A DNA stretch of 64,000 bases from Campylobacterales bacterium (GCA_026390165.1 JAPLGM010000017.1:1-64000), one strand, 5' to 3'; positions 49,257-62,199 are shown, numbered from the stretch's first letter. Notes: generated from the sequence alone by a model not told the origin. Numbers and translations: made by a program.

Positions 49257-52001
49257 GTGTTAGATATTTTTAAACAGCAAAAAAGCTTTTTGACGCGGGC
49301 GAAAGAGAAAAGTTCGTTTCGGTATTGTATTGATTTTGATAGCAATGGTGCGTTTATCGACGTATGCGATAAAAATAACAAACCTTTGAGCGGTCTTGAT
49401 TATCGGGTTTATAATGGTCTTGATCGGGAAATACTGCAGCTTTTCGATGAGTATGCGAAAAGTGATTTTTTTGCTATCAGCTGGGAAGAGGAAGAGGATA
49501 AAGTTTATCTTACCAAACATCCCAAACTCTTGGAGCTACTACGCTTTAGTGATAATCTCTATTGCAAAAATGAGAAGATTGGTTTTGCGACAGGAGTGAG
49601 TGAAGTTGATCTGATCATTGTCCCCAAAGATAAACTTATTGTTTTCCCCACAATTCAGGGGGAGAGTGAATTTGTATTTCTCACCTCAAGCTTTGTTTTG
49701 GTTGGCAATACGATCAAGCAAATTCACACCGTAGGGGAAAACTTCGCCAAACTTAGCAGTTTTAATACGATTGTCGAGAAAGAGAAACTCGAAGAGTTCC
49801 TAACTATTTTGGTAACCCATTTTGAAAATATCAATCTTAAATATGACGATTATCGTGTTGAGCTCAAAGAGGAGAAGAAGCTCATCAAACCTGCGGTTAT
49901 CTTCGAAAAAGTGACAGCGGAGAATGAGCTTATTTTACGCACCTCCGCGATGATTGGGGGGCTTACCCCTGAGTTTTTTAATGATTTCAATATCTCTAAA
50001 ATTGTCCTTATCAATGAGTTCGAGAAAACGATTAATATCTATGAGTGCGATTTTAGTGATGTATTTGACTCCTACGCTACGATTTTCAAACAACTGGCAA
50101 CCCTTAAAAAAACACTTAAAGAGGCAAGCTTTAGTGAAGATGACGGGCTGTTTGTGATTGATGCACCTTTAGCGAGCGAATTTATCCTTCACCATCTTCA
50201 CGGAATTATCAGCAGTTGCGAAATCTACGGCAGTGACAAACTCAAAACGTATAAATACAACACGACCAAACCAACCCTTAATGTCCGTTTTAAAGATAAA
50301 GTCAATTTGCTTGGGGGAGATGATATTAGCGTCACTATCGGCGATGAGCAATTTAATGTTTTTGAGTTGATTAATCTGTATAAAAAGCACTCCTATATTC
50401 CCCTTAGTAATGGCGAAAAATCGATTATTGACAAATCGTATATTGCCAAATTGGAACGGATTTTCAAAAAAGAGGGGAAAAACGTCAAAATATCTTTCTT
50501 TGATCTCCCCGAAATCGAGGAGTTGATTGCCCAAAAAGATCAAAAAATCTTCAAAAATTCACGCGATTTTTATCAAGGGTTTGAGGGGTTAAAAAGTTCT
50601 AAAGCAGGTTTGCCAAAACTGAACAATGCGACGCTTCGTGATTATCAAAAATATGGGATCAAATGGCTCAAATATCTTTACGACAACAATTTCGGCGGCT
50701 GTTTGGCAGATGATATGGGGTTGGGAAAAACGATCCAAGCTATCGGGCTTTTATCAACGATCTATCCCAAAGCAAAACGCCCCTCACTCATTGTAATGCC
50801 CAAAAGTTTGCTCACCAACTGGCAAAATGAGCTAACGAAATTTAATCCCACTCTCTCTTTTTACCTCCATTACGGCAATATTCGTGATACATCTAATTTT
50901 GCAAATTATAATATCATCCTCTCCACCTATGCCATCGTCCGTAATGACATTGAGACGATCAAAGAGATAGAGTTTGATACCATTATCCTCGATGAGTCCC
51001 AAAATATCAAAAATATTGACTCCCAATCCTCCAAAGCGATGATGCTTCTTAATGGTGTTCACAAATTCGCCCTCAGCGGAACCCCTATTGAAAACTCCCT
51101 TTTTGAACTCTACTCCCTCTTTCGGTTTATCAATAACGGGATGTTTTCGAGTGTCAACAATTTTAAAAACGATTTTGCCGCCCCCATCCAATCGCAAGAG
51201 GATGAGGAGATTGCCCAAGCCTTGAAGACAAAAATCACCCCCTTTATCTTACGACGGCTCAAAAAAGATGTTCTCAAAGATTTACCTCCCAAACAAGAGC
51301 AGATTATCTACATCGATATGGAGGAGAAACACAAAGCATTTTACGATCAAAAGAGAGCCTATTACAAACAAATGCTGGAGCAACAAGTCGCCGCAAGCGG
51401 CATTGAAAATGCAAAATTCGCCATTTTCCAAGCGTTCAATGATCTTCGACAAATTGCCTCCGTTCCCGAACTCAAAAGTGATCTCCCTATCCCTTCGTCG
51501 AAAATCGATGCCCTTTTTGAGATGTTGGAAGATATTATTGCCAACAACCATAAAGTCCTTATTTTCGCCAATTATCTAGGTTCTCTTGATGCAATTGCCT
51601 CCAAAGCCGATACATTGGGGTATGAGTATCTGACGATGACAGGAAGTACACGAGACCGCCAAGCGTTGGTCGATAAATTCCAAAATGAGAAAAAATACTC
51701 CCTCTTTTTAATGACCCTCAAAGTGGGAGGGGTAGGGCTGAACCTCACCGAAGCCGATTTTGTCTTTATTTTCGATCCGTGGTGGAACAAAGCGGCGGAG
51801 AATCAAGCAATAGACCGTGCCCACCGTATGGGGCAAAAAAATACCGTCTTTAGCTACAAGATGATCACCAAAGGGACGATTGAGGAGAAGATATTGGAGT
51901 TGCAAGGGCAAAAGCAAGATTTGACCGATCGAATCATCAGTGGTGACGAAACAGGGCTCAAACAGATCACTGCCCAAGAACTCGAATTTTTATTAGGATG
52001 A
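49257..52001 (+). CDS. SNF2-family DNA helicase/translocase
   Basis: LADDMGLGKTIQAIGLL, LDESQNIKN, LSGTPIENSLFELYSLF, DRAHRMGQKNTVFSYKMITKGTIEEKI. Confidence 0.93.
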   Translation: MLDIFKQQKSFLTRAKEKSSFRYCIDFDSNGAFIDVCDKNNKPLSGLDYRVYNGLDREILQLFDEYAKSDFFAISWEEEEDKVYLTKHPKLLELLRFSDNLYCKNEKIGFATGVSEVDLIIVPKDKLIVFPTIQGESEFVFLTSSFVLVGNTIKQIHTVGENFAKLSSFNTIVEKEKLEEFLTILVTHFENINLKYDDYRVELKEEKKLIKPAVIFEKVTAENELILRTSAMIGGLTPEFFNDFNISKIVLINEFEKTINIYECDFSDVFDSYATIFKQLATLKKTLKEASFSEDDGLFVIDAPLASEFILHHLHGIISSCEIYGSDKLKTYKYNTTKPTLNVRFKDKVNLLGGDDISVTIGDEQFNVFELINLYKKHSYIPLSNGEKSIIDKSYIAKLERIFKKEGKNVKISFFDLPEIEELIAQKDQKIFKNSRDFYQGFEGLKSSKAGLPKLNNATLRDYQKYGIKWLKYLYDNNFGGCLADDMGLGKTIQAIGLLSTIYPKAKRPSLIVMPKSLLTNWQNELTKFNPTLSFYLHYGNIRDTSNFANYNIILSTYAIVRNDIETIKEIEFDTIILDESQNIKNIDSQSSKAMMLLNGVHKFALSGTPIENSLFELYSLFRFINNGMFSSVNNFKNDFAAPIQSQEDEEIAQALKTKITPFILRRLKKDVLKDLPPKQEQIIYIDMEEKHKAFYDQKRAYYKQMLEQQVAASGIENAKFAIFQAFNDLRQIASVPELKSDLPIPSSKIDALFEMLEDIIANNHKVLIFANYLGSLDAIASKADTLGYEYLTMTGSTRDRQALVDKFQNEKKYSLFLMTLKVGGVGLNLTEADFVFIFDPWWNKAAENQAIDRAHRMGQKNTVFSYKMITKGTIEEKILELQGQKQDLTDRIISGDETGLKQITAQELEFLLG

Positions 52002-52005
52002 TGAG

Positions 52006-53808
52006 ATGGCATTGTTAGAATTTAACCTCGATAAAGTTACGGAGATTACTAAATCTTTTTACAAAAGCGATTCAATAGCAGTGATTGATTTTATGGAGAG
52101 TTTACTGGATCCAAACGAGAAAGAAAAACTTCCTGCAACGTTAAAAACAGCGGGGGGACGAACGGCGGCACCCGCTGGGACGTTGAACCAATTTATCAAC
52201 AAAAAGATCAAAGATCAGACCTTTCGAGAGGCATTTAGTGCCAAGTTGACATCAACGGAGAATTCAAAAGAGATCTATTATAAGCTGATTTGGGAAGATG
52301 ATAGGATTCCTACTGACTTCTTACCCGAAACCATCCCCCTTCCTCAAAATATCCCCGATCAGTCCTACGGAGTTCACGAGGTGGTATTAGCAGATGAGCT
52401 CTCCTTGATCTCCTATTTTACCCGTTCTGGGGACTATTTTACAAAGAAATACAGTTTCGTCAAAATCAACCCCAAAATTGTAGCTTTGTTGAAATTTCTT
52501 TTTCCGTTACCCTTAGATTATGAACTTGTTGCTATCGAAAACTCAGCAGAGACAGAGTATACCTACAACAACGAAGAGGGGATTTTGGGCTTTATCACCC
52601 TTATTGATGAGATGATCGAACACAATCTTGTGGAGATCAGCGAAACGAATGAAAAAACGTCGACGAAAACCTTGAACGTCCTCAAAAAATCAAGCGGTAT
52701 CCCTGAATTCTACGGGGATAAAGGGATGGACAGCTACGCCAACGATATGCTCACCCGAAGTTTTTTCTTTTTTCGGTTTGCCAAAAAAAGCTACCGCAAT
52801 AAAGAGTTGGAGTCGCTCAAAGAGTTCGTGCAGTATCAGTTGGAGAATCGGCTCCAATTTTTCATCTCCCGAATTTTCACCTCCCATTTGCGAAAAGTAC
52901 GATTTTCCCAAAACGACACCTCCCAAGCAGGGTTATTTTTACTTCTCAAAGAGATTTTGATGAAAATGCCCAAAGAAGCTTGGGTTAGTTTTGAAAATAT
53001 TGAACACTATTGCTTTTACCGCAAATATGAAATTCACCTTGAAGCAAGGCACAAAACCGATTCTTACAATATGGAGTGTCAAACGGAGATGGATAAATTT
53101 AGGACATTTTCGTGTGAAGAAGCCTATCATGAATTATTTTTAAATCCTCTCCTGAAAGCGTCACTCTTTTATCTAGGGGCATTGGGTGTTTTGGAAATTA
53201 AGTATGAACATCCACTCTCAGAGTGTGGTTTTAGTGCGGAGGGTAAGGATTATATTTCAGTATGGGACGGGTTAAGTAGTATCCGCTTTACTCAATTGGG
53301 AAAATATCTCCTTGGTTTTACGAAAGAGTACACCCCAAAAGTGTTGGAAAGAGAGAAGAGAGAGATTAAGTTCGATGAGTATAAACCCATCATGACCATT
53401 AATCTTAGTGATACAATCACTATTGCCAAACTCGAAGGGTATGCCGAAAAAATTGATGCGAACAAATACGCCCTTAGTTATCCCAAGATTTTCAAAGAGT
53501 GCACTAGTTTCAAAGCATTGGATTTAAAAATTACCGCTTTTTACAAAAATATCGAGGAGCATCCCCCAAAAGTATTTGTTGATTTTTTCGAAGAGATTCG
53601 TAATCGTGCCAATTTGCTCAGTGTTGATCGCAAGCAAATCGTCATCGAATTGGAGAACGATAAAGCTCTTTTACATCTCTTTATGAACAACAAAAAACTC
53701 CAAGAGCTGATTATTAAAGCGCAAGGGTATCGGATTCTGGTTCTCAAAGAGAATCTCCCCAAAGTAAAAAAAATATTGCACGATAATGGATTTTTCATTG
53801 ATTTCTAG
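52006..53808 (+). CDS. Unknown 600-aa protein; C-terminus faintly like XPB/Ssl2-type Helicase_C_3
   Basis: Single ORF 5 nt after SNF2 gene, overlapping recQ; C-terminal IMTINLSDTITIAKLEGYAEKIDANKYALSYPKIF... Confidence 0.75.
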   Translation: MALLEFNLDKVTEITKSFYKSDSIAVIDFMESLLDPNEKEKLPATLKTAGGRTAAPAGTLNQFINKKIKDQTFREAFSAKLTSTENSKEIYYKLIWEDDRIPTDFLPETIPLPQNIPDQSYGVHEVVLADELSLISYFTRSGDYFTKKYSFVKINPKIVALLKFLFPLPLDYELVAIENSAETEYTYNNEEGILGFITLIDEMIEHNLVEISETNEKTSTKTLNVLKKSSGIPEFYGDKGMDSYANDMLTRSFFFFRFAKKSYRNKELESLKEFVQYQLENRLQFFISRIFTSHLRKVRFSQNDTSQAGLFLLLKEILMKMPKEAWVSFENIEHYCFYRKYEIHLEARHKTDSYNMECQTEMDKFRTFSCEEAYHELFLNPLLKASLFYLGALGVLEIKYEHPLSECGFSAEGKDYISVWDGLSSIRFTQLGKYLLGFTKEYTPKVLEREKREIKFDEYKPIMTINLSDTITIAKLEGYAEKIDANKYALSYPKIFKECTSFKALDLKITAFYKNIEEHPPKVFVDFFEEIRNRANLLSVDRKQIVIELENDKALLHLFMNNKKLQELIIKAQGYRILVLKENLPKVKKILHDNGFFIDF

Positions 53809-55585
53809 CCATAAATATACGACCCTTAAACAGGTATTCGGATTCTCAGCGTTTAGAGCTTTACAAGAGGAGGCGGTTGATGCGATCCTAGAGGGGCGAG
53901 ATTTAGCGATGCTGCTCCCTACGGGTGGCGGAAAGTCACTGTGTTATCAGCTTCCCTCTTTGCTTATGGGCGGGGTTACGATTGTGGTCTCCCCCCTTAT
54001 TGCCCTAATGCAAGATCAGATTATTGCCTTAAAAGAGCTAGGGATTGAAGCAGATATGATCTCCTCGGCACAAAGTAATGATGCGGTGCAAGAGGTGTAT
54101 GCCAAAGCAAAAAATGGAGTATTGAAGCTGTTGTATATCGCCCCTGAACGATTGGGAAGCCCTCAGTTTGTTTCGCTTCTTCGCACCCTTGCTGTTAACT
54201 TTTTCGTCATTGATGAAGCCCACTGTATCAGTGAGTGGGGGCATGAATTTCGGGATGATTACCGACGATTAGGGGAGTTGAGAGCCAATTTCCCCCATAC
54301 CCCCATCGCCGCTTTTACCGCCACCGCCACCCCCAAAGTACGTGAGGATATCCTCTCACAGTTGGGGCTGAACGATCCGTTGATTTTACGGGCCCCCGTA
54401 CTGCGTAAAAATATTAAAATCACCCTCCGAGAGCGCGATGGGGCGTGGCGTGCTGATTTGATTGCATTACTGAAACAACATCGAAATGAAAGCGGTATTA
54501 TCTATGCCTTCTCACGAAAAGAGACTGAGGAGCTCTCTGAATTTTTAACTAAAAAAGGGTTTAAATGCCTTGCGTATCATGCAGGGATGAGTGCACAACT
54601 ACGCCATGACACGCACAAAGCGTTTTTGAACGATGAGACGCAAATTATTGTTGCTACCGTTGCCTTTGGGATGGGGATTGACAAAGGGGATATCCGTTTT
54701 GTTATCCATACCTCACTCCCCAAAACGCTTGAAAACTACTATCAAGAGATGGGGAGAGCAGGGCGTGACGGGGTCGATTCGGAGGCGGTACTTTTTTATT
54801 CGGGAAGTGATTTTTATACGAAAAAACGGCTTATCGAGAGCAATGATGATCTTGGTTATCAAGAAATGATCCTTCAAAAGCTCAAATCAGCGATGGATTA
54901 CGCTACGGCTGAGGAGTGTCGCCATAAAATGATTGCCGCCTATTTTAACGATACGATTGAAGCGTGCGGGTCACAATGTGACAACTGTCTGGAGAGCGAT
55001 ATCCCCAAAAGTGATATTTCTGTTGCATCCCAGAAATTTCTCTCGTGTGTCTATAAAACAGGGGAACGGTTTGGGGGAGGGTATATAGCTGAAGTTCTTT
55101 TCGGGGAGAGGGAGAAACTACGCGATGAGGCTCACGCATCTTTAAGTGTTTTCGGTATCGGAAAAGAGATGAGCAAATCGGTGTGGGGTATTATTGCCAA
55201 ACGCCTCGTTGAGATGGGAGCTATTGAACCTGATGAATATAAAGCCCTCAAGCTTACCCCTGTTGGTGCTGAGATATTGAGAGGAAAGAAAAGTGTTTCT
55301 ATCCGAAAAGAGCGATTGATGCCGAAAAAAGCGTCTTCAAAAGAGAAAGAGTATGATACGCAAACGCCGACTCATTTTGATGCGTTCAAAAAACTTCGTG
55401 CACAAATTGCCAAAGAGAACTCTATTCCTGCTTATATTGTCTTTGGGGACAAAACATTGATGGAGATGGCGGATAAATTACCGATAACCAAGGAGGAGAT
55501 GCTCCGTGTCAGCGGTGTGGGTGAGGTGAAATACGAACGATATGGAGAGCGTTTTAAGGAACTCTCTTTACAACTTATTCACTAA
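53786..55585 (+). CDS. recQ: ATP-dependent DNA helicase RecQ
   Basis: LLPTGGGKSLCYQLP, DEAHCISEWGHEFR, CGSQCDNC zinc site, HRDC-like C-terminus. Confidence 0.95.
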   Translation: MDFSLISSHKYTTLKQVFGFSAFRALQEEAVDAILEGRDLAMLLPTGGGKSLCYQLPSLLMGGVTIVVSPLIALMQDQIIALKELGIEADMISSAQSNDAVQEVYAKAKNGVLKLLYIAPERLGSPQFVSLLRTLAVNFFVIDEAHCISEWGHEFRDDYRRLGELRANFPHTPIAAFTATATPKVREDILSQLGLNDPLILRAPVLRKNIKITLRERDGAWRADLIALLKQHRNESGIIYAFSRKETEELSEFLTKKGFKCLAYHAGMSAQLRHDTHKAFLNDETQIIVATVAFGMGIDKGDIRFVIHTSLPKTLENYYQEMGRAGRDGVDSEAVLFYSGSDFYTKKRLIESNDDLGYQEMILQKLKSAMDYATAEECRHKMIAAYFNDTIEACGSQCDNCLESDIPKSDISVASQKFLSCVYKTGERFGGGYIAEVLFGEREKLRDEAHASLSVFGIGKEMSKSVWGIIAKRLVEMGAIEPDEYKALKLTPVGAEILRGKKSVSIRKERLMPKKASSKEKEYDTQTPTHFDAFKKLRAQIAKENSIPAYIVFGDKTLMEMADKLPITKEEMLRVSGVGEVKYERYGERFKELSLQLIH

Positions 55586-55586
55586 A

Positions 55587-56501
55587 TCAGTATTTTTTAT
55601 TGGTGTTAACGAGGAGATCTTTTTCGCTTAGATCTTCTAGCAACATTTTGAGATTTTTAAGGGTGAAGAGACGTAATGTTTCGCATTTTTCTTTTTTAAA
55701 CTCATTGGAGAATCCATTTTTTGAGAAGATGACGAAAATATCGGGGGTGAGTTTCGCTGCTGAACATCTCTCTTGAAGTTTGGTGAGCTCGCTTTTGTTC
55801 GCCTTTGCTTTGGAATATTTGCATGCGCCCGCAATGGTCTTGCCCCCCTTGGTTCGTCCCAATATCTCAATAATGCCGTTTTTATCCCAATACGAGCCGA
55901 TTTTTCCTACGGGGTCCTCTTTAAAGCTTTGTTTGGTCAGCTCAATAACCAGTTTCTCATACACCGACTCGAAAAAGGCTTGCTTCGTATTTTCCCAACG
56001 CTCTTTCATCTCTTTATACTCACCCTCTTTAATCCCCTTGTAATACGGTGAGACAAAAGCAAACCAGAATCGGAGAAAGGGAGCTGTAAAAGTAAGTCGA
56101 TCAGAGACAATTTCGTTCTCATCAGCTGGCTCCTCTTGAGAGTTTTCACGGCTCAATAATCCATTTTTAATCAAAAAAGCTGCCGACTCTTCCCCCTCTC
56201 TTCGGGATAGATTTGCACGTCTAAACGCTGAGTGCTCTCTGGCATCACCACTTGCAAGGGCAGTGAGAAGGGCATGGTGCCCCTTGTTACTTTGGGTGAT
56301 TTTGGCAATGTCCCCATGGATATAGTGATAGTTTGCCAACACCTTTTCATCGATCAGTTCTTCCAACGGTTTGGTCACATCCACGCTCCACCCCATACCG
56401 CCAAAAACCGCGAAGTACTCTATTGCCTTTTCGATGTCGGTGGCGTTATTTTGAAAACAAAATGAGCGAAATTGTTGTGTGGGTAGTGAGTGTTTTGACA
56501 T
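55587..56501 (-). CDS. DUF234-domain protein without N-terminal AAA ATPase domain
   Basis: LTFTAPFLRFWFAFVSPYYKGI, nuclease-like NGIIEILGRTKGGKTIAGACKYSKAKAN. Confidence 0.7.
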   Translation of the reverse strand: MSKHSLPTQQFRSFCFQNNATDIEKAIEYFAVFGGMGWSVDVTKPLEELIDEKVLANYHYIHGDIAKITQSNKGHHALLTALASGDAREHSAFRRANLSRREGEESAAFLIKNGLLSRENSQEEPADENEIVSDRLTFTAPFLRFWFAFVSPYYKGIKEGEYKEMKERWENTKQAFFESVYEKLVIELTKQSFKEDPVGKIGSYWDKNGIIEILGRTKGGKTIAGACKYSKAKANKSELTKLQERCSAAKLTPDIFVIFSKNGFSNEFKKEKCETLRLFTLKNLKMLLEDLSEKDLLVNTNKKY

Positions 56502-58119: not shown

Positions 58120-58164
58120 GTGAATTCGCTATACTTTCAAAATAAGCAAACAAAGAGACAGACT

Positions 58165-59697
58165 ATGAAAAAACTCCCGATCGGAATATCAACACTCAAA
58201 ACAATCATCGAAGAAAATTATCTCTATGTCGATAAAACTAAAATAGCACTCGAACTTATAGAGAATGGACAATACTATTTTTTAAGCCGCCCACGACGAT
58301 TTGGAAAATCTCTTTTTCTCGATACTCTCAAAACCATCTTCAATGCCGATAAAGAAGTATTCAAAGGGCTTTATATTTATGATAAATACGATTGGAGTAA
58401 AAAATATCCGGTGATTCATATCTCTTTTGCAGCGGGCAATCCTGCTACAAAAGAGGATATTCAAGCAAAACTTTATGAAATCATGGATACAAACCAAAGA
58501 CATTTAGACATCTCATGTCCCGAAAACTTTAGCTTGTCAGGGTGTTTTAAAAGAATGATTGAAGAAGCCTACACCAAACACAACCAAAAAGTGGTTATTC
58601 TCATCGATGAATATGATAAACCCATTTTAGACAATATTGAAAACACTGAAGTAGCAACACAAGCAAGAGAGATTTTAAAAGACTTTTACAGTGTCATAAA
58701 AGGGTCTGATGAGTACATCAAATTTGTATTTATAACAGGGGTGAGTAAATTTAGTAAAATTTCTCTTTTTAGCGGACTCAATAACCTTGATGATATTACC
58801 ATAGATCCAAACTACTCAACCATTTGTGGCTATACGCAAAACGATGTTGAAACGGTGTTTGCAAAGCATCTTGCAGGTCAAGATTTTACAAAAATAAAAC
58901 ACTGGTATAACGGCTATAAATGGCTCGGTGAGGGGGTATATAATCCGTTTGATATATTGTTGTTTATTTCAAAAAACTTTATATATAAAAATTACTGGTT
59001 TTCTACGGGAACACCTACTTTTTTACTAAAACTTATTGAAAAAAATAACTATTTTTTGCCAGACTTAGAGAATATAGTAAAAGATGAAAGTATGCTTGAG
59101 AGCTTCGATGTAGACTATATCGAGCTTGAAACATTGATGTGGCAAACGGGGTATTTGACGATTGTAAAAACAGAAGAGGGGTTTGATGGAATCCCTTTAT
59201 ATAGTTTAGATATTCCAAATTATGAGGTACGAAGCTCACTTATTAATACTATAGGTGACTTTATGACTAAAATACACAACCCTTTAGTGTTAAAAAACAA
59301 TCTTTTTAACGCTTTCAAAACGTCTGATTTTATTATTTTTGAAAGAGAGATAAAATCCCTCTTTGCCTCCATCCCTTACAACAACTTCGTTAATAACCCA
59401 ATGCACGAAAAAGAGGGGTACTATGTGAGTGTTTTTTACGCTTATATGAAAGCTATGGGTGTTGAAACTATAGGAGAAGATGTCACCAATAAAGGACGCA
59501 TCGACCTCACTCTCAAGCTCCCCAATGCGCTCTACATTATGGAATTCAAAACCGATGGAAAAGATGCACTTGCTCAGATAAAAGAGAGAAAATACTACGA
59601 AAAATACACCTCTTCAAATCTTCCGATTTATCTTGTAGGGATAGAGTTTGACATCAAAGAGAAAAATGTATCAAGACTTGAGTGGGAGAGGGTTTAG
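58165..59697 (+). CDS. AAA-ATPase-like / PD-(D/E)XK nuclease superfamily protein
   Basis: LPIGISTLKTIIEENYLYVDKT, SRPRRFGKSLFLDTL, C-terminal GRIDLTLKLPNALYIMEFKTDG. Confidence 0.93.
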   Translation: MKKLPIGISTLKTIIEENYLYVDKTKIALELIENGQYYFLSRPRRFGKSLFLDTLKTIFNADKEVFKGLYIYDKYDWSKKYPVIHISFAAGNPATKEDIQAKLYEIMDTNQRHLDISCPENFSLSGCFKRMIEEAYTKHNQKVVILIDEYDKPILDNIENTEVATQAREILKDFYSVIKGSDEYIKFVFITGVSKFSKISLFSGLNNLDDITIDPNYSTICGYTQNDVETVFAKHLAGQDFTKIKHWYNGYKWLGEGVYNPFDILLFISKNFIYKNYWFSTGTPTFLLKLIEKNNYFLPDLENIVKDESMLESFDVDYIELETLMWQTGYLTIVKTEEGFDGIPLYSLDIPNYEVRSSLINTIGDFMTKIHNPLVLKNNLFNAFKTSDFIIFEREIKSLFASIPYNNFVNNPMHEKEGYYVSVFYAYMKAMGVETIGEDVTNKGRIDLTLKLPNALYIMEFKTDGKDALAQIKERKYYEKYTSSNLPIYLVGIEFDIKEKNVSRLEWERV

Positions 59698-60073: not shown

Positions 60074-60757
60074 ATGAAACACCATTATTTGAGCGCCCTC
60101 GCGGCGCTAACTCTCGCATCGTCCGTATTTGCCGGCGGACCGGACGATTTTATCGGTTCGATGTGGCTGACGGCGGCGCAATTTTGTCCGCAGGATACGG
60201 TAGAAGCGAACGGCCAGCAATTATCGATACAACAGTATCCTGCATTGTCGGCGATATACGGAATTACCTACGGCGGTGACGCAAGAACCTATTTCAACGT
60301 ACCCGATATGCGCGGCAAAATGCCGGTAGGAACAGGATTAGTTCCCGGTACATCCTACACGGTTCAGCGCGGAGATAAAGTGGGTCAGGAGACCATGACT
60401 CTAACTCAGGCCTCTCTTCCAACCCATACCCATACCGCGACGTTTGCACCCACCCCTATCACGGTCAACATTCCCGTGTCATCAAATATAAAAAACAATA
60501 CAAATGTCCCCTCGACAACTAACAAGTATTTGGCCGCATCTTCAGCCAACAGTAGTGGAGCTACTATGTGGGCGAACACTAATACAAATCCGGTCAATCT
60601 TGCCGGAGTGAGCTCTTCGGGCGGTGTAGGGGGAGGAAGTGTGAGCGTCGCCGCTACAGGGGCAACTGCCCCGACAGCAGTCGTTACGATCCCTCCGCAA
60701 TTGGGCGTGCGATTTTGTATCGTGACCATCGGAACCTGGCCGGAAAATCCAAACTAA
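60074..60757 (+). CDS. Secreted phage tail collar-domain protein (MdpB-like), paralog 1
   Basis: Signal peptide MKHHYLSALAALTLASSVFA; DFIGSMW...GITYGGDARTYFNVPDMRGKMPVG. Confidence 0.88.
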   Translation: MKHHYLSALAALTLASSVFAGGPDDFIGSMWLTAAQFCPQDTVEANGQQLSIQQYPALSAIYGITYGGDARTYFNVPDMRGKMPVGTGLVPGTSYTVQRGDKVGQETMTLTQASLPTHTHTATFAPTPITVNIPVSSNIKNNTNVPSTTNKYLAASSANSSGATMWANTNTNPVNLAGVSSSGGVGGGSVSVAATGATAPTAVVTIPPQLGVRFCIVTIGTWPENPN

Positions 60758-60791
60758 TTTCATCCTAAAAAATATCAATGAAGGAAAAAAT

Positions 60792-61475
60792 ATGAAACGT
60801 TATTACGTCAGCAGCCTTGCGGCACTTGCCCTCACGTCATCCCTGTATGCAGAGAATCCCGATGCCTATATCGGCTCGATCTGGGCTACGGGATCGAACT
60901 ATTGTCCTACCAACACGGTACTGGCAGACGGTCGGCTATTGAACGTCAACGACTATCCGGCATTGTTCTCCCTCTTCGGAACGACCTACGGCGGTAACGG
61001 AGCTGCGACCTTTGGTGTACCGAATCTGGGCGGGCGCACGCCGGTCGGTGTAGGAACGGGGAACAACCTAACTCCTGTTGCACTCGCGCAACAACGCGGA
61101 CAAGCTAGCGTAGCTCTTACAGCGACCAATCTTCCGGCACATACCCATGTTCCGACGTTTACCCCAAACGGCACTACAACCGCTTTTGCGGTTAACGTTG
61201 CGGTTTCTTCGAACATCGGAAGTGCGAATCAGCCTTCACCGACCGTGAACACCCTCTCCGGTTCGACCATCGGCAGTGCCGGAGCCAATATGTGGGCATC
61301 CACTAATCCGACATCAGTCAACCTCGCAGGGGTTACGATTTCCAACGGAGCCGGTGCTGCGACCGTGACGTTGGCCAGTACAGGCAGCAACGGAACGGTT
61401 CCAACGATTCCGCCAGTGTTGGGGATGACCTATTGCGTCACAGTAAACGGCATATATCCGGTTAAACCTAATTAA
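60792..61475 (+). CDS. Secreted phage tail collar-domain protein, paralog 2
   Basis: Signal peptide; GTTYGGNGAATFGVPNLGGRTPVG. Confidence 0.88.
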   Translation: MKRYYVSSLAALALTSSLYAENPDAYIGSIWATGSNYCPTNTVLADGRLLNVNDYPALFSLFGTTYGGNGAATFGVPNLGGRTPVGVGTGNNLTPVALAQQRGQASVALTATNLPAHTHVPTFTPNGTTTAFAVNVAVSSNIGSANQPSPTVNTLSGSTIGSAGANMWASTNPTSVNLAGVTISNGAGAATVTLASTGSNGTVPTIPPVLGMTYCVTVNGIYPVKPN

Positions 61476-61497
61476 TACCACATAATAAGGAAAAAAT

Positions 61498-62199
61498 ATG
61501 AAACACTATTACCTAGGCGTTCTTGCCGCTCTTACTATGACCTCCTCCGTATTCGCGTGCGGTTCGGATGCAGATTATGTCGGTTCGATCTGCACCACTG
61601 CCGCAGCCTATTGTCCGGCAAACACACTCGAAGCGAACGGTCAGATATTGCAAGTAACTCAGAATCAGGCTTTATTTTCTTTGCTCTACAATACCTACGG
61701 CGGCGACGGGAAAACGACGTTCGCCCTTCCCGATCTGCGCGGACGCGCTCCTGTAGGGGTGAGTTATAATGTACCGAGTGCTGCGAATCAACCGGTGAGC
61801 ATGGGGACAAAACGGGGCAGCGAATCGGTCGCGCTAACAACGGCTCAAATGCCGATACATATCCATAATGCGGCGTTTACCCCAAGCAACGGGACGAACC
61901 CCATTGCCGTCACTGTACCAGTTTCTTCGAATACGTCTGGAAATACAACCGTTCCCTCGCCAACCAACAATTATCTGGCTGCATCGCCTAGTGGCGATAA
62001 CGGCGGGAATATGTGGTCGAGCACGCCGAGTACCCCTCCGGTCACTCTCGCAGGGGTGACGACCACCGGCGGGACAGGGACGGGTAACGTAACCGTCGCA
62101 ACCACCGGTGCGAGCGTACCAGTCTCGACGATTTCGCCGGAATTGGGTTTGAAATATTGCGTCGTTACGGTCGGATACTATCCGCCGCGACCGGATTGA
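61498..62199 (+). CDS. Secreted phage tail collar-domain protein, paralog 3
   Basis: Signal peptide; YNTYGGDGKTTFALPDLRGRAPVG. Confidence 0.88.
   Translation: MKHYYLGVLAALTMTSSVFACGSDADYVGSICTTAAAYCPANTLEANGQILQVTQNQALFSLLYNTYGGDGKTTFALPDLRGRAPVGVSYNVPSAANQPVSMGTKRGSESVALTTAQMPIHIHNAAFTPSNGTNPIAVTVPVSSNTSGNTTVPSPTNNYLAASPSGDNGGNMWSSTPSTPPVTLAGVTTTGGTGTGNVTVATTGASVPVSTISPELGLKYCVVTVGYYPPRPD

Follow-up and report, generated by a model that had tools for sequence, protein, structure and literature searches.

A SNF2-family ATPase gene and a gene for a Helicase_C_3-related protein form a fixed pair that moves between bacteria

Three genes that follow closely upon one another on one strand of DNA from a Campylobacterales bacterium (GCA_026390165.1 JAPLGM010000017.1:1-64000; the whole stretch of 64,000 nucleotides (nt) is referred to here as the window) raise the question of which of them belong together. 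The first codes for a SNF2-family ATPase, the second for a protein of 600 amino acids (aa) to which we gave the working name MID, and the third for a RecQ DNA helicase (Table 1). An initial annotation, whose three reading frames we found where it had placed them, had proposed that the trio forms a compact and undescribed module of DNA processing or defence. We surveyed 100 relatives of the window genome, and then 228 genomes of the same family and 399 of the order. Among the 100 relatives, MID was present in 9 and the N-terminal region of the SNF2 protein in 10. A MID-type gene was the next gene after SNF2, on the same strand and 0–11 nt away, in 19 of 19 readable loci, which come from 17 Campylobacterota genomes and one Fusobacterium (G000, the window genome; G040, G085, G071, G049, G061, G048, G058, G473, G455, G448, G457 with two copies, G393, G474, G464, G364, G543; and Fusobacterium vincentii); other matches were cut by contig ends. 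In contrast to this constancy, recQ directly follows MID in only 2 of the 19 loci and stands alone elsewhere, so the trio was rejected as a conserved unit. What stood of the proposed helicase module is the fixed pair of SNF2 and a protein unmatched in the libraries; recQ as a member did not. Literature searches found no published description of the pair.

The pair's SNF2 gene has a patchy distribution (22 of the 228 genomes of the family and 7 of the 399 of the order). The genomes are mostly fragmented metagenome-assembled genomes (MAGs), and outside Campylobacterota plasmid-type records are the sole source of loci; a contig scan with a single protein found only two loci, so that the spread outside Campylobacterota and Fusobacteriota is under-sampled. 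The partner behind SNF2 is not always of one type. G058 has a shorter partner of 436 aa with the C-terminus of MID, and four genomes (G049, G455, G393, and G464) carry partners of two types in tandem. We also observed partners of 435/436, 576, and 598 aa that replace or precede the ~600-aa MID at L014, L122, L128, L130, and L016, with the C-terminus in common; the 435/436-aa partner carries the same C-terminal domain as MID. Two decayed SNF2 copies (G093 and G502) had no recognisable partner adjoining, and SNF2 genes of the same family broken by frameshifts or stops, with no partner gene beside them, were seen at L073 and L133.

The two genes are inherited together. The SNF2 protein of the window genome is 72% and 70% identical to those of G071 and G085, which belong to other families, vs. 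67%, and 43% for G048, within its own family. The housekeeping protein IlvB shows the reverse order, with 82% identity to G048 and 78–80% to the other family members tested, vs. 72% to G085 and 69% to G071. The SNF2 and MID trees agree with one another (Mantel r = 0.97 overall and 0.79 for the ingroup; p = 0.0002), and a clade of G085, G000, and G071 appears in both with a support of 0.94 in each. Since the two trees are concordant and SNF2 is at odds with the housekeeping gene, the pair travels as a unit and moves horizontally between bacteria. MID changes ~2.8 times faster than SNF2; between the sister species, the ratio of nonsynonymous to synonymous substitution (dN/dS) was 0.11 for MID, 0.04–0.065 for SNF2, and 0.065 for RecQ. 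Change in MID was highest in residues 76–150 and lowest in the last 75, as would suit a protein that docks by a conserved end and targets by a variable one.

As to what MID is, the protein gave no significant match in Pfam, NCBIfam, PADLOC, PHROGs, or PDB, in keeping with the initial annotation, which recognised nothing in it apart from a faint resemblance of its C-terminus to the XPB-type Helicase_C_3 region. A match to Imm72 was below threshold (E-value 0.079) and was taken as chance, and no MID relative was found in viral and phage collections. The resemblance to Helicase_C_3 proved real when followed through intermediates. A tblastn search of plasmid records with MID led to Rhodococcus proteins annotated as helicase-associated, which pass the Pfam Helicase_C_3 family (45 bits; cut-off 34.2). 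A profile of ten MID proteins (A1) compared by hhalign with a profile of six proteins of this partner family (A2) matched with a probability of 99.5% and an E-value of 2.2e-23 over 437 columns. Residues 415–600 contributed a match of E 1.4e-17 and residues 150–414 one of E 2e-9, and nothing was found for residues 1–150 vs. A2; as controls, five column shuffles gave E 0.5–0.8 and a reversed profile gave E 0.37. At the level of sequence profiles, then, residues 150–600 of MID are homologous to a family of proteins that pass PF13625 and whose C-terminus is the Helicase_C_3 domain.

Helicase_C_3 is also the N-terminal domain of XPB (that of the Gloeocapsopsis XPB is PF13625), and in TFIIH, XPB and p52 dock through domains of this class. 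There, the winged-helix protein p52 carries at its C-terminus a clutch domain that is homologous to the N-terminal domain of XPB, and the two proteins dock by way of these homologous domains (PMC6422496). Merging MID with the intermediate family gave E 8e-4 vs. the XPB N-terminal domain. The intermediate family A2 is in turn related (E 8e-8) to larger helicase-associated proteins whose genes adjoin XPB in Deinococcus and Paenibacillus, and these proteins match both the XPB N-terminal domain and TFIIH XPB chains. A direct match of the MID profile to the same XPB partners failed (E 0.76). Genes of this kind lie close to XPB genes: in the cyanobacterium Gloeocapsopsis a partner-family gene lies 1 nt before the XPB gene with the PF13625 N-terminus (L062:6717-10281), in Paenibacillus an XPB gene and a Helicase_C_3 protein gene overlap by 14 nt (L090:3977-7670), and in three Deinococcus (L087, L091, and L092) XPB genes adjoin genes with the helicase-associated domain (Helicase_C_3). 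According to a study from 2012, XPB and XPD were the only TFIIH subunits that had been found in bacteria (PMC3353954); we consider XPB with its Helicase_C_3 neighbour a candidate counterpart of XPB-p52 there. The locus described here resembles these in that the gene of an SF2 (superfamily 2) motor adjoins a gene with a C-terminal Helicase_C_3 domain, and differs in that its motor is SNF2 and that MID lies below detection for PF13625.

The SNF2 protein appears to be an active motor. Its Pfam domains (SNF2-rel_dom, 1e-68; Helicase_C, 1e-20) and its helicase motifs, which are invariant or nearly so in the alignment, place it in the SNF2 family of ATPases, and its best solved relative is the Snf2/Rad54 helicase 1z63 (residues 459–912; E 1e-116). 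It shares the motor core with prokaryotic Snf2/Rad54 ATPases of this Sulfolobus type and is unlike them in its long family-specific N-terminal region and its constant downstream partner gene. That region, which the initial annotation had put at ~450 aa and called uncharacterised, comprises ~445 aa with no Pfam family and no PHROG match. ERCC3_RAD25_C is not present in the protein by Pfam; the motor beside MID is thus not XPB. In NCBIfam the protein comes closest to a Snf2 helicase described as a regulator of pilus expression, at 389 bits with a cut-off of 1100, and a match to RapA is confined to the motor. PADLOC matches of SNF2 to DpdE, ZorD, and DrmD, and of RecQ to DpdF, were rejected as generic helicase matches: the DpdE match covers residues 437–901 only, the motor half of DpdE (NCBIfam DpdE, 46.6 bits; cut-off 500), and the ZorD score was 222.9 bits (cut-off 1500). 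Likeness to Dpd (DpdE, DpdF), Zorya (ZorD), and DISARM (DrmD) lies in the matched SNF2 or RecQ-like motor domains; on the SNF2 side only the motor half matched, and the partner genes of these systems were not seen beside the locus. A full-length DpdE was not found (a genome-wide search for dpdA was not made), and no ZorA- or ZorB-like protein was detected by Pfam among the scanned neighbours.

We propose, at a probability of roughly 60%, that MID is a winged-helix docking and regulatory partner of a SNF2 double-stranded DNA translocase, much as p52 is for XPB in TFIIH. The locus would be a two-gene accessory cassette. Its first gene would encode an active-looking translocase with the long N-terminal region, and its second a dedicated partner with predicted DNA-binding, winged-helix-like modules and the C-terminal Helicase_C_3-like domain. 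By analogy with p52, MID would bind SNF2, target it to DNA and stimulate its ATPase, and the fast-evolving N-terminal half of MID, or a second partner in tandem, may set specificity. Several points weigh against this proposal. Contact between the two proteins is inferred, and gene adjacency is no proof of interaction. PF13625 did not match MID or nine homologues even at an E-value of 5, and it was found nowhere in the window genome. Compared directly, the profiles of MID and of the XPB N-terminal domain match very weakly (E 0.03–0.3), so the chain from MID to XPB rests on the intermediates; nor does MID match p52 directly in sequence. On the motor side, no homology of the SNF2 N-terminus to that of XPB was detectable; a clutch-like domain sought in it gave no signal vs. 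the XPB N-terminal domain or vs. MID. AlphaFold models of MID (3 sequences) and of the SNF2 N-terminus (2 sequences) were of unusably low quality, with a predicted local distance difference test (pLDDT) score of about 40 in both cases.

What the pair does in the cell is a separate matter. It may be a two-gene anti-phage or anti-plasmid defence in which the rapidly changing partner would recognise invading DNA and the motor would translocate along it. We entertain this reading, which bears on the role and is compatible with the docking model, tentatively. The patchy, horizontally moved distribution is consistent with it, as are the faster evolution of MID, with its highest dN/dS in the N-terminal part, and the swapped and tandem partners behind one SNF2 family. 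Certain neighbours point the same way: MksF/MksE/MksB-type condensin genes start 12 nt after MID in an apparent five-gene operon with SNF2-MID (L124:8547-15722), T5orf172/ResIII and AAA ATPase genes lie near the pair at L128, and stand-alone A2 proteins are encoded directly upstream of Wadjet jetABC on a Cupriavidus plasmid (L063:4749-11779) and near Hachiman hamAB on a Polaromonas plasmid (L064:4992-11601). Yet the flanks, which differ between carriers, are mostly housekeeping genes, and the Fusobacterium pair adjoins dnaE (in two records, one a poor assembly). No nuclease or toxin domain was found, MID has no PADLOC match, the PADLOC matches of SNF2 cover the motor region only, and pairwise dN/dS of MID indicates purifying selection. 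With its housekeeping flanks and no effector domain, the pair does not look like a classical defence-island system.

That SNF2, MID, and RecQ act together as an accessory module of DNA repair or of the replication fork, as the annotated trio might suggest, appears improbable. The operon-like spacing with recQ occurs in G000 and G040, which are sister species (MetG identity 96%); the window genome is Sulfuricurvum-like, and the nearest relative with the trio is Sulfuricurvum sp. MAG JAABPY01. RecQ is present in 20 of 22 further SNF2-bearing genomes, mostly on other contigs and in G058 40 kb away, and in five other genomes of the genus, which have no SNF2/MID, recQ has unrelated neighbours. XPB relatives do act in repair, and recQ lies upstream of the pair by 2.1 kb in G448 and by 0.9 kb in G543, with other genes between, above a rough chance expectation of ~0.1 locus, a comparison that was made post hoc and on fragmented contigs; a loose link of recQ with the pair is possible. 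The protein itself is an ordinary RecQ (NCBIfam TIGR01389 over its full length, 666.7 bits; cut-off 640.2; RQC, HRDC, and Zn-binding domains), incidental to the SNF2+MID pair. Probably, recQ is an independent helicase gene of the housekeeping type, and in this lineage it has ended up behind the cassette. A complex for transcription recycling or gene regulation like RapA/HepA, with MID as its DNA- or polymerase-binding subunit, is improbable: a SNF2 ATPase with a long N-terminal region and the pilus-type NCBIfam match would suit it, but that match is far under its cut-off, the RapA match covers the motor only, and a core transcription factor would hardly be so patchily distributed.

The features of the locus are collected in Table 1. 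The gap between SNF2 and MID measures 4 nt (52002–52005), not 5 as first annotated. The GTG start of SNF2 is preceded by a good Shine-Dalgarno sequence (AGGAGAG), and the previous gene ends 9 nt upstream. The annotated 23-nt overlap of MID with recQ is reproduced provided that recQ starts at ATG 53786; since no Shine-Dalgarno sequence precedes this codon and the recQ frame of the sister species opens at a TTG matching residue 5 of the window RecQ, the true start is uncertain.

Table 1. Coordinates of the SNF2, MID, and recQ genes and of their domains in the window.
Feature	Position	Strand	Remarks
SNF2-family ATPase	49257..52001	+	914 aa, GTG start; motifs DDMGLGKT, DESQ, SGTPIEN, QAIDRAHRMGQ intact
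SNF2 residues 1–440, N-terminal region without known domain	49257..50576	+	Diagnostic of this SNF2 subfamily
SNF2-related ATPase domain, residues 463–736	50643..51464	+	Pfam
SNF2 Helicase_C domain, residues 754–859	51516..51833	+	Pfam
MID, partner protein of 600 aa, inherited together with SNF2	52006..53808	+	
MID residues 1–150, variable N-terminus	52006..52455	+	No homology found
MID residues 151–414	52456..53247	+	E 2e-9 to middle of Helicase_C_3 partner family; looks winged-helix-like on inspection
MID residues 415–600, most conserved part, Helicase_C_3-like C-terminal domain	53248..53805	+	E ~1e-17
RecQ DNA helicase, 599 aa	53786..55585	+	DEAD, Helicase_C, Zn-binding, RQC, HRDC; neighbour in this lineage, outside the conserved pair

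Further along the window, positions 55587–56501 encode a DUF234 protein without an AAA ATPase domain, a 75% identical relative of which (L068, 3589–4503) likewise lies <1 kb from recQ. Positions 58120–59697 encode a protein with AAA-ATPase_like and PDDEXK_9 domains, and L019 has a similar gene 2.7 kb downstream of the pair. Three tandem paralogous secreted proteins (227–233 aa; 60074–62199) by eye resemble phage tail-collar domains.

These lines may meet in one picture, that of SNF2+MID as an undescribed, horizontally moving, two-component translocase system built on the XPB-p52 docking principle. In it, interchangeable, fast-evolving Helicase_C_3 partners (435/436-aa, 576/598-aa, and ~580–606-aa types, alone or in tandem) would serve a single motor family and set its target, probably in conflict with mobile DNA. 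Taken as a whole, we regard this picture as doubtful. Our analysis gives the unannotated MID family a homology and a testable job, and suggests that bacteria, too, couple SF2 motors with Helicase_C_3 partners, an arrangement known structurally from XPB-p52 in TFIIH, and that they do so with XPB as well as with SNF2 as the motor. If it is true that partners swap to retarget one motor, the pair would offer a simple model of how translocases acquire specificity.

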